Shown here: positions 37,237 to 40,869 of the stretch, in pieces
Position numbering within the stretch: position 1 is the stretch's first letter
How the letters are laid out: every line of letters begins with the position of its first letter
NCBI GenBank assembly: GCA_020051845.1
Contig: JAGVQG010000050.1
Coordinates: 1-53,033, forward strand
Length of the DNA: 53,033 nt
Reading direction: 5' to 3'
DNA from: an archaeon
Lineage (GTDB): Archaea; Nanobdellota; Nanobdellia; Woesearchaeales; ARS49
Notes under the pieces: model-generated
Told to the model about the DNA's origin: nothing
Databases searched by the model: none
The model's input: only the letters and a program-made list of their open reading frames with translations
Made by a program: the position numbers and the translations under genes

Positions 37237-39041
37237 CAGTACTTGCTCCTCAGCACGAGTTTTGGATAGATGCCCATGGCCTTGAACTCGTCAAGCATAA
37301 GCTTGAACGCGTAGGCGATCTCGATGTCGTTGACCTCGCTGTGGTCTCCGCACGTCGGGCAGTAGCGTTTGTTCTTGTATGGGTCGTGTATGGCGATGAT
37401 TCCGCATTCCTCGCATACTGGGACCACGGTCTTGTCGGAGTCGAAGCGCTCCTTGAGGAGCATCGACGCGCCGTGCGCGACGAAGGTGTCCTTCTCCATC
37501 TCTCCCAGCCTCAATCCGCCTTCCTTGGCGCGACCTTCTGTTGGCTGGCGCGTGAGCAGTTGGATCGGACCGCGTGCGCGGCTGTGGATCTTGTTCGCGA
37601 CCATGTGTTTGAGTCTCAGGTAGTACATGTTGCCGATGAATATCTTGGATTGCATCATCTCGCCGGTCTCGCCGTTGTAGACCCTCTCGGTCCCGTTCTC
37701 GTGGAATCCGAGCGATGCGAGTTCCTTGCGCAGGTCGTCTTCCTTCTCCGAGGCGAAGATGGTGCCGTCGACGTAGCGGCCGCTGAGCGCGCCCACTTTT
37801 CCGCCGACCAGTTCGACCAGGTGCGAGATCGTCATACGCGACGGGATTCCGTGCGCCGAGAAGATCAGGTCCGGCTTGATTCCGTTGGCCGTGAATGGCA
37901 TGTCCGCTTCGGGCACGATGATGCCGACGACTCCCTTCTGGCCGTGGCGTGACGTGAACTTGTCGCCGATCTCCGGCATGCGCGTCTCGCGCAGCCTGAC
38001 CTGGACTAGCTTGTTGCCTTCCTCGTTCTCCGTGAGGAGCACGAAGTCGACCACGCCTTCCTCGCCGTGGCGCAATGCGACGCTTGATTCGCGCCTGATG
38101 TTGCTCGCGAGGCTGTATTCCTCGAGAGATGATAGGAACCTTGGAGGTGAGGTCTTTCCGATTATGACGTCGTCCTCGTGCACCTTTGCTTCGGGATAGA
38201 CGATGCCGTCTCCCTCGAGGAGCCTGTAGTCCTTCTCGGATTTGTAGCCCTTGACTTCCTTGTCAGGGACGCTGACCTCGTCCATGAGACCGCCTGAGTA
38301 GCGTAATTCCTCGGCCTGGGCAGGCCTGAAATATGTCGAGCGTCCGAATCCGCGCTGGATCGAACCCTCGTTGATGACGACCGCGTCCTCGATCGTGTAT
38401 CCGCGGAAGCTCATTATGGCGACGACGATGTTCTGTCCTGCCGGGTGCTTCTCGTAGTGCGCGATGTCGTGCATTATCGTGTTGACGATCGGCTTCTGAG
38501 GGGTGTGCATCAGGTTGACGTCCATGTCCATGCGCACGTTGAAGTTCGCGGCGTAGAATCCGACGGACTGCTTCTGGTTCTTCGAACCGATGATGATACG
38601 TGAGCTTGCCATGTGGTTGGCGTACGGCACTAGCGCCGTGACGAGGCCGACCATTGCGACCGGTGAGATCTCCAGGTGGGTGTGCTCGTGCGTGACTTCC
38701 GCTTCGTCGAAGGCGACGAGGCAGTCCTCTTCCTCTGCGGCGTCGAGATATTCTATGACGCCCTGTTCGACCAGGTCTGTCCAGGTTATCTCGTTCTTCT
38801 GCAGCTGCTTGACGTGCTTATCGGTGAGCATGGGCATGCCGTCCTTGACGACGATGAGCGGGCGTCTTGCGCGGCCGCGTCCTGCTTCGATGAGCACCTG
38901 GTTGGAGTCCTTGTCGTGGTGGACGTTGACCGAGTTGCTTATGGCGCCCTTGCGGCGCTCGGCGCGCACCTGCTGCGCGTAGTGTGGGGCATCGTCGGTG
39001 AATCCGACGAACTTGCCGTTGAGGAAGACTTCAGTGTGCAT
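37236..39041 (-). CDS. rpoB1: DNA-directed RNA polymerase subunit B'
   Basis: EDAVVINEGSIQRGFGRSTYFR, KFTSRHGQKGVVGIIVPEADMPF, GGLRLGEMEKDTFVAHGA. Confidence 0.98.
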
Positions 39042-40518
39042 TGGGCCCCTCCTTGAGTCCTATCTCGCGCAACGCCCGGAGCACTTCTGCTTCGTCGGTG
39101 CGCGTCGTTATGCTGGCCATGAGCGCGAGGTTCTTGCGCAGGCCGATGTTCGTTCCTTCGGGTGTCTCGACAGGGCAGAGCCTGCCGAGGTGCGTCGGGT
39201 GCAGCTCACGGGCCTCGAAGTTCTCCTGCGAGGCCGACAGCGGGCTGACCACTCGCTGAAGGTGTGAAAGTGTGTTCAGGTTGTTGAGGCGCTGGATGCG
39301 CTGGCTGATGCCCTTTCTTGCGCCGACCCAGTTGCCCGTGGCCATCGAGCTGTAGATCCTCGAGGTGAGGAGCTTGTCGCGGATGATGACCTTGATGCTC
39401 GGGAACTTGCCGCGTTTCACCAGGCGCTGGAAGTTGTAGAGCAGGTCGCCGATGAGGACCTTCAGGTTGACCCTGAATAGGTCTCCGAGAAGGTCGTCGC
39501 TGAGCTTGAGGCGCTTGTTGCCGTAGTGGTCCTTGTCGTCGGCAGGCAGTGCGCCGCTTTCGACGAGTATGAACTTGTGGAGCATCTTGCAGAGGTTGAG
39601 CGCCTTTGCCGCGCGGTGCTCCGTGCCGATGCCTATGTGGGGCAGCAGGTAGCGGTCGAGTATGTCTTCCATCCTTTCGAGGCGGACGTCCTTGGCCTGC
39701 GTGATGCCTATGCGCTTGGCTATCTGGTCGATGGCGTCCTCGGTTGTCTTGATGCCGACGAATTCGAAGAGGTTGATGAGCACGTCGTCGTACTGCTTGT
39801 CCAGCGATATCGTGGTCATTATCTCCTCGTCCTTGAGCAGGCCTAGGGCCTTGATTATGATGACGAGCGGCACGCGCTTGACTCGGGTGAAGGTGAGGTA
39901 GAACACGCCGTCCTTGCCCTTCTCGATGGTGTGCGGGATCTTGTAGCTGCCCGCTTCCGAGAATAGCTTGGCGACCAGTCCGTCCTTCCAGTCGGTGACC
40001 ATGCAGACGTTGCTTGCGAGGTCTTCGACGGTGATGAGCACTCTTTCCGTGCCGTTGATTATGAAGTATCCACCGGGGTCGTCAGGGTCCTCGCCCTTCT
40101 CGATGAGCTCTTCGCGGTTCATGTTGGCGAGGTGGCAGACGTTGCTCTTGAGCATGACCGGCAGCGAACCTATCTGGGTCGTGAAGCTTTCGCGCTGGAC
40201 GTCGTTGACGTGGGCGCTGACTTCGATGTAGACTGGCGCGGCGTAGCTGATCTTGCGCAGGCGCGCCTCGACAGGGTAGATCGGACGCTTGCTTCCGTCC
40301 GCTTCCGTGATCTCGGGCTTGGTCACCCAGATCTTGTCGAGCTTGATCCTGAAGGAGTCGACGTTCGGAGGGATGATGGTCGGTTCTATGACCTTGTTCT
40401 CCTCGAGTATCACCTGGAGCTCATGGTCGACGAAATTGTTGAAGCTCTCGATGGCGGAACGCACGAGGCTGTTCTCCTCGAAATACTTCTTTATGAGCAG
40501 AGGCGAATAGTTAGCCAT
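39031..40518 (-). CDS. rpoB2: DNA-directed RNA polymerase subunit B''
   Basis: YFIINGTERVLITVEDLASN, SHLQRVVSPLSASQENFEARELHPTHLGRLCPVETPEGTNIGLRKNLALMA. Confidence 0.98.
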   Translation of the reverse strand: MANYSPLLIKKYFEENSLVRSAIESFNNFVDHELQVILEENKVIEPTIIPPNVDSFRIKLDKIWVTKPEITEADGSKRPIYPVEARLRKISYAAPVYIEVSAHVNDVQRESFTTQIGSLPVMLKSNVCHLANMNREELIEKGEDPDDPGGYFIINGTERVLITVEDLASNVCMVTDWKDGLVAKLFSEAGSYKIPHTIEKGKDGVFYLTFTRVKRVPLVIIIKALGLLKDEEIMTTISLDKQYDDVLINLFEFVGIKTTEDAIDQIAKRIGITQAKDVRLERMEDILDRYLLPHIGIGTEHRAAKALNLCKMLHKFILVESGALPADDKDHYGNKRLKLSDDLLGDLFRVNLKVLIGDLLYNFQRLVKRGKFPSIKVIIRDKLLTSRIYSSMATGNWVGARKGISQRIQRLNNLNTLSHLQRVVSPLSASQENFEARELHPTHLGRLCPVETPEGTNIGLRKNLALMASITTRTDEAEVLRALREIGLKEGPNAH

Positions 40519-40765
40519 TTGTCACCCTCCTATAGAATAGGGAATTTCCCGAGTGCGGGTTTTCGCGTGTTATCTTGATGATGTCGCCTTCCTTCACGTC
40601 GAGGTGTTGGATGGCGGGATCCGAGCTGAGTATCTTCGGCAGTTCCTTTGCAGTGATGGAATAGTCCTTGAGAAGCTCTTCAGTGTCCTTCTCGCTCAGT
40701 TTTTTGTGTTCTGGGACGAGGTGGTGTTTCGTGACGTCGTACACGGTGGTTGTTTTCTTTGCCAT
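40511..40765 (-). CDS. rpoH: DNA-directed RNA polymerase subunit H (Rpb5 C-terminal)
   Basis: HHLVPEHKKLSEKDTEELLKDYSITAKELPKILSSDPAIQHLDVKEGDIIKITRENP. Start at MAKKTT; the longer ORF would run through the tRNA. Confidence 0.95.
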   Translation of the reverse strand: MAKKTTTVYDVTKHHLVPEHKKLSEKDTEELLKDYSITAKELPKILSSDPAIQHLDVKEGDIIKITRENPHSGNSLFYRRVTNG

Positions 40766-40776
40766 TGTCAGTGTAA

Positions 40777-40869
40777 CGGGGCGGACGGGACTTTCGGCCG
40801 TCATCGGCTTTCGAACCCGCAACCTGCTGGTTAAAAGCCAGATGCTCTACCAGGTTGAGCTACCGCCCC
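40777..40869 (-). tRNA. tRNA-Lys (anticodon UUU), predicted to contain a T-loop intron
   Basis: Coding strand: GGGGCGG TA GCTC AACCTGGTA GAGC A TCTGG CTTTTAA CCAGC AGGTT GCGGG TTCGAA[19 nt]T CCCGT CCGCCCC G. 7/7 acceptor pairs; anticodon TTT at 40833-40835. Confidence 0.92.
40791..40809 (-). other. 19-nt predicted archaeal tRNA intron (noncanonical, between positions 59 and 60)
   Basis: GCGGG|TTCG|AAA|GCCG|ATGA|CGGC|CGAA|AGT|CCCGT folds as hBHBh': 4-bp central helix TTCG/CGAA flanked by 3-nt bulges AAA and AGT on opposite strands. Cleavage AA^A and AG^T restores T-loop TTCGAAT. Confidence 0.87.

Follow-up and report, generated by a model that had tools for sequence, protein, structure and literature searches.

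At the head of the gene row rpoH-rpoB''-rpoB'-rpoA', on the minus strand of the window (the whole 53,033-nt stretch of archaeal DNA analysed here), lies a 93-nt gene for a precursor of tRNA-Lys(UUU) (40777..40869, minus strand), which would be 74 nt long once spliced. The gene for RNA polymerase subunit H, rpoH (40511..40765, minus strand), begins with an ATG 11 nt past the 3' end of the tRNA, and its own end is overlapped by rpoB'' (39031..40518, minus strand; 495 aa), which served to find the syntenic loci in relatives. Read on the minus strand, the tRNA gene runs GGGGCGG-TA-GCTC-AACCTGGTA-GAGC-A-TCTGG-CTTTTAA-CCAGC from the acceptor to the anticodon stem, with the anticodon UUU at 40835-40833, and continues AGGTT-GCGGG-TTCGAA-AGCCGATGACGGCCGAAAG-T-CCCGT-CCGCCCC-G. 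The acceptor stem is paired in 7/7 positions, the D-stem in 4/4, the anticodon stem in 4/5 (pair 27-43 is a U-C mismatch) and the T-stem in 5/5, including one G-U. The 19-nt segment AGCCGATGACGGCCGAAAG (40791..40809, minus strand) sits exactly between tRNA positions 59 and 60, the position of the non-canonical 59/60 introns.

With this segment in place, the T-arm has the outer helix, the 4-bp central helix and the two opposed 3-nt bulges of an archaeal BHB tRNA intron. The outer helix is the T-stem itself, GCGGG (40820-40816) pairing with the CCCGT of positions 61-65 (40785..40789, minus strand). In the central helix, the exon TTCG of positions 54-57 (40812..40815, minus strand) pairs with the intron CGAA (40796-40793). 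The archaeal BHB rule predicts one cut in the 5' bulge, AA/A (40809..40811, minus strand), at 40810/40809, and one in the 3' bulge, AG/T (40790..40792, minus strand), at 40791/40790; between them stands an inner helix, GCCG/CGGC, with an ATGA loop (40797..40808, minus strand). Folded alone in silico, the T-arm adopts exactly this arrangement of three helices and AAA and AGT bulges. When the 19 intron letters were shuffled, a 4/4 central helix together with a 4-bp inner helix arose in 0.014% of trials, or in 0.003% if only Watson-Crick pairs were counted. One result counts against the interpretation that we prefer below: the whole precursor reaches its minimum energy, -41.5 kcal/mol, in a non-cloverleaf fold that is in silico 3.3 kcal/mol more stable than the cloverleaf with the BHB (-38.2 kcal/mol). 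Removal of the segment at the bulges in silico gives a standard 74-nt tRNA with a restored T-loop, which ARAGORN calls as tRNA-Lys(ttt). An earlier note on this DNA had described the gene in these terms, and rereading the minus strand bears it out to the base for the coordinates and the 7/7 acceptor pairing, and equally for the 5-bp outer helix with its one G-U, the TTCG/CGAA central helix, the 3-nt bulges, the inner helix and its loop; the standard tRNA that it expected from removal of the 19 nt is the one that ARAGORN recognises.

The unspliced gene escapes common tools. ARAGORN reports nothing for it, with or without introns allowed, and its Rfam score of 27.9 bits falls short of the cut-off of 29, with the 3' end aligned into the intron. 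A scan of the window with Rfam at the gathering threshold and ARAGORN without introns found nothing; weak Rfam matches to mir-278 and YrlA were dismissed as chance, lying far below their cut-offs. The warning in the earlier note that standard annotation may miss this gene thus holds for ARAGORN and Rfam, the two programs run. tRNAscan-SE 2.0 contains BHB models (PMC8450103).

The window makes up contig 40 of G000, an assembly of 1.33 Mb in 68 contigs that is 96.6% complete. Identity of its rpoB'' to those of Candidatus Woesearchaeota genomes reaches about 75%, which marks the organism as a DPANN archaeon. Among the 40 tRNAs recognised in this assembly, the window tRNA-Lys is the sole gene with a UUU anticodon. 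A second intact tRNA-Lys(UUU), which the earlier note held would, together with a lack of spliced reads from the locus, speak against its reading, was sought in this set and is absent from it, the other Lys gene being CUU. The adjacent polymerase genes contain AAA codons (9 across three genes). It could be argued that the gene is a pseudogene broken by an insertion, AAA being read by a tRNA missed in the assembly or in the search, given that the assembly is fragmented and slightly incomplete and that some other expected tRNAs, e.g. Ser-GCU and Cys-GCA, also went unrecognised in it. We find this scarcely credible, since apart from pair 27-43 every stem is intact, the insertion forms an exact BHB of the kind that shuffling rarely yields, synteny of the locus extends across the order, and the orthologous insertions keep the exon-intron helix. 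The earlier observation is correct, and its interpretation as a 59/60 BHB intron in a functional-looking, single-copy tRNA-Lys(UUU) is supported.

This intron is not the only one of its kind in the genome. The tRNA-Ala(UGC) gene (L039:242-358, on contig 17) has a 45-nt 59/60 intron with a 9-bp inner helix and, again, a TTCG/CGAA central helix; without these 45 nt it becomes a 72-nt tRNA-Ala, which makes this the second T-loop intron of the genome. Twelve other tRNAs have introns at 37/38, and a comparison of their geometry shows several to be relaxed motifs, so that the strict BHB is not general in this genome. tRNA-His(GUG) is found twice (L009 and L037), once with a 20-nt intron and once without, which possibly reflects contamination (2.2%) or a real duplicate. 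In a related genome that is 100% complete in a single contig (G034), few tRNAs reach the Rfam cut-off, and 20 matches are obtained at E<=1, versus about 40 in G000 and in a further relative, G016; its remaining tRNAs may be split or escape notice because of multiple introns.

Relatives use the same site. Among 76 non-redundant syntenic tRNA-Lys(UUU) loci, the window's own included, 39 carry 13-83 extra nt inserted exactly between positions 59 and 60, never shifted from that point, and 37 have an intact T-loop. Altogether, 70 of the 76 exceed the length of a mature tRNA and 6 are without any extra sequence, while 28 of the 39 genes with a 59/60 intron also carry extra length elsewhere. We are thus looking at a clade-wide 59/60 hotspot at one syntenic tRNA-Lys(UUU) locus; GtRNAdb aside, we found no systematic account of tRNA introns in Woesearchaeota or DPANN archaea in the openly readable literature. 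On the rpoB'' tree, presence of the intron changes at least 17 times, compared with a mean of 25.8 and a minimum of 19 for shuffled labels. This phylogenetic signal indicates that the intron is inherited and yet turns over rapidly. In other Woesearchaeota, ordinary tRNA-Ser genes (GCU, GGA, CGA, UGA) also have 59/60 insertions (L254, L255, L257, L258, L260, L264).

The helix that joins exon and intron is maintained in these relatives. All four pairs between exon positions 54-57 and intron positions -6 to -3 are present in 32/39 introns, and the pairing tracks the exon: TTCG is found with CGAA, TTCA with TGAA and TCCG with NGG-type partners, the matched changes being G57A with C-to-U and U55C with A-to-G. 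Watson-Crick cells number 138/156, whereas a permutation with 20,000 re-pairings, which ignores relatedness, gave 116 on average and never more than 129. Independent covarying changes are few: position 57 has about 3-4, a number with which a sign test on the tree cannot reach significance. Because the permutation is blind to kinship and the independent changes are few, we take the covariation as support, short of proof. The inner helix is less constant: 12 of the 39 introns have, like that of the window, a contiguous one in strict register that is 3 bp or longer, and the other 27 are without it, eight of them, of 13-15 nt, being too short to form one. The existence of such short introns at the same site means that the lineage does not have its minimum near 19 nt, and here the earlier note, which had placed it near the size floor, was mistaken.

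The comparison among relatives also bears on whether the insertion could survive into the mature tRNA as a hairpin that extends the T-loop. DNA alone is no proof of excision, and a tRNA-Ser-like family does show long structured T-loop insertions in this order. However, retention would destroy the T-loop/D-loop elbow, the tRNA-Lys inserts vary over their whole 13-83 nt range with no conserved core while the point of insertion stays at 59/60, and about half of the loci do with an intact T-loop. We therefore regard retention as very unlikely and an intron that is removed as the better reading.

The serine-type family deserves a description of its own. A search of related genomes with the pattern of a 59/60 intron turned up many serine-type tRNA genes of class II whose inserts are long and whose anticodons are not those of serine (L219-L238, L171, L180, L186, L188-L190, L195, L197, L198, L242-L251) in the genomes G013, G016, G015, G014, G028, G092 and others; none is evident in G000. 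They share a GCCGGSG acceptor, G73, a variable arm and a 59/60 insertion, their anticodons are GAA, GAG, GAC, GAU, CAG and GUC, and many two-sided changes back their cloverleaf. By a strict pattern G013 has about 13 copies, and in G016 these genes are additional to the about 40 tRNAs above the Rfam cut-off. A covariance model of these genes scores highly in many families of the order, the weaker and shorter matches being ordinary class II tRNAs. The genes resemble the bacterial allo-tRNAs (PMC7609411), from which they differ in having an ordinary 7/5 acceptor branch and a T-loop insert. In about half of them (L235, L236, L190, L228, L219 and others) the insert is complementary to the gene's own anticodon arm, over up to 17 bp in L235, and own pairs bind better than swapped ones (permutation P = 0.0005, which ignores relatedness). 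At L239 (G016 contig 1, 29500-35000), two of these genes adjoin a paralogous protein cluster beginning MSDERLRELERKWQETG, and in some serine-type copies a hairpin, TGCCGA..TCGGCA, lies immediately 5' of the acceptor stem.

The machinery to splice the tRNA-Lys precursor appears simple. A PF01974 search found one splicing endonuclease gene in the window's genome, encoding an alpha-type EndA of one unit and 176 aa, and there is one gene for the ligase RtcB. The catalytic residues Tyr112/His122/Lys153 of EndA are intact and are invariant in 12 family members. The protein aligns over its full length with the alpha4 enzyme of Methanocaldococcus jannaschii and over the whole of the shorter Nanoarchaeum equitans alpha subunit, and it conserves an acidic VDDEGD segment, the counterpart of VDADGD in the M. 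jannaschii enzyme. In the alignment it is without the VEKPRGADF insertion of Aeropyrum pernix, the Crenarchaea-specific loop (CSL) in which lysine K44 lies, whose role is described in PMC12397907. At 176 aa it is not the three-unit fusion of about 390 aa that defines epsilon2 enzymes. A single-sequence fold of EndA was set aside for its mean pLDDT of 40. Across the order, 223/238 genomes have EndA matches, nearly all exactly one, and neither PF01974 nor an order-specific profile found a second copy or a beta subunit in the window's genome or in single- to few-contig genomes. The (alpha-beta)2 or epsilon2 enzyme of broad specificity for which the earlier note had said to look was thus not found, the genome having one alpha-type gene in its place.

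Taken together, the window very probably holds the cell's essential tRNA-Lys(UUU), interrupted by a 19-nt T-loop BHB intron that EndA cuts out and whose flanking exons RtcB joins. The gene would be transcribed as a precursor with the intron in its T-loop, and exon nucleotides 54-57 with intron nucleotides -6 to -3 would build a strict hBHBh' motif atop the T-stem. EndA, presumably as a homo-oligomer of the single alpha-type protein, would then cut each 3-nt bulge once, after nucleotide 59 and before nucleotide 60, and RtcB would join the exons, which would yield a normal tRNA of 74 nt with the T-loop UUCGAAU. Because EndA recognises secondary structure, we would expect an alpha4 enzyme to accept the strict BHB of the window at any position.

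A real conflict between enzyme and introns lies in the relaxed introns of relatives, not in the strict BHB of the window. According to reviews, efficient removal of relaxed BHB introns is confined to (alpha-beta)2 and epsilon2 enzymes, and introns are few and for the most part canonical in genomes with alpha4 or alpha'2 enzymes (PMC6379350, PMC4090602). It is tempting to speculate that Woesearchaeales splice non-canonical introns, including those of 13-15 nt without an inner helix, by a single alpha-type EndA without a CSL or ASL; we give this somewhat less than an even chance. A rival for the enzyme is a broad heteromer whose beta subunit has diverged too far to be recognised, as in N. equitans, in place of the alpha-type EndA alone. 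The relaxed motifs in relatives would suit such an enzyme, and the nearest solved relatives of EndA include the N. equitans alpha subunit, the partner of a beta subunit (PMC6379350). Against it stand the exactly one copy found by both searches and the conserved acidic segment; moreover, the N. equitans beta itself scores 1.8e-15 against the order-specific profile, so that a similar beta in the searched genomes would have been seen. A heteromer seems to us less likely than not, and since it concerns the enzyme only, it is compatible with the intron of the window being spliced as proposed.

In kind, the window intron joins the non-canonical 59/60 introns already known from archaea, as the earlier note had rightly said (PMC4090602 gives the position). 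It is like those of Crenarchaeota and Nanoarchaeota in its position, BHB splice sites, shortness and the multi-intron genes within its clade, and differs in its host, a member of the Woesearchaeota, in its recurrence at one syntenic tRNA-Lys(UUU) locus and in the one alpha-type endonuclease gene that goes with it. The high intron load, with 70/76 loci overlong and 28 combining a 59/60 intron with extra length, is shared with the multi-intron tRNA genes of Thermoproteales (PMC4033280, PMC8450103); in contrast, the enzymes of Crenarchaeota are of the (alpha-beta)2 type and have a Crenarchaea-specific loop, and neither feature was found here. ARMAN-2 (Micrarchaeota; PMC12397907) is likewise an ultrasmall archaeon with introns at varied positions, but its epsilon2 enzyme has 390 aa, three units and an ARMAN-specific loop. 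The closest likeness in size, single gene, full-length alignment, catalytic triad and freedom from an added specificity loop is to the M. jannaschii alpha4 EndA (1A79), which differs in being described as narrow, such genomes having mostly canonical 37/38 introns only (PMC6379350, PMC4090602).

The neighbourhood of the tRNA is conserved too, rpoH lying downstream in 61 of the 76 loci with recognisable tRNA-Lys, at a median gap of 22 nt. Given this linkage, the RNA-polymerase mRNA might owe its 5' end to processing of the tRNA. Moreover, since two common annotation tools do not see an essential tRNA of this lineage, what look like losses of tRNAs from DPANN genomes may be artefacts. Finally, if Woesearchaeales do remove non-canonical introns with a single alpha-type EndA, theirs would be a single-gene class of endonuclease with broad specificity, and the accepted coupling of enzyme architecture to intron diversity would be broken. 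Recurrent 59/60 introns at one locus, together with an endonuclease encoded by one gene, make the proposed co-evolution of intron diversity and endonuclease architecture directly testable.
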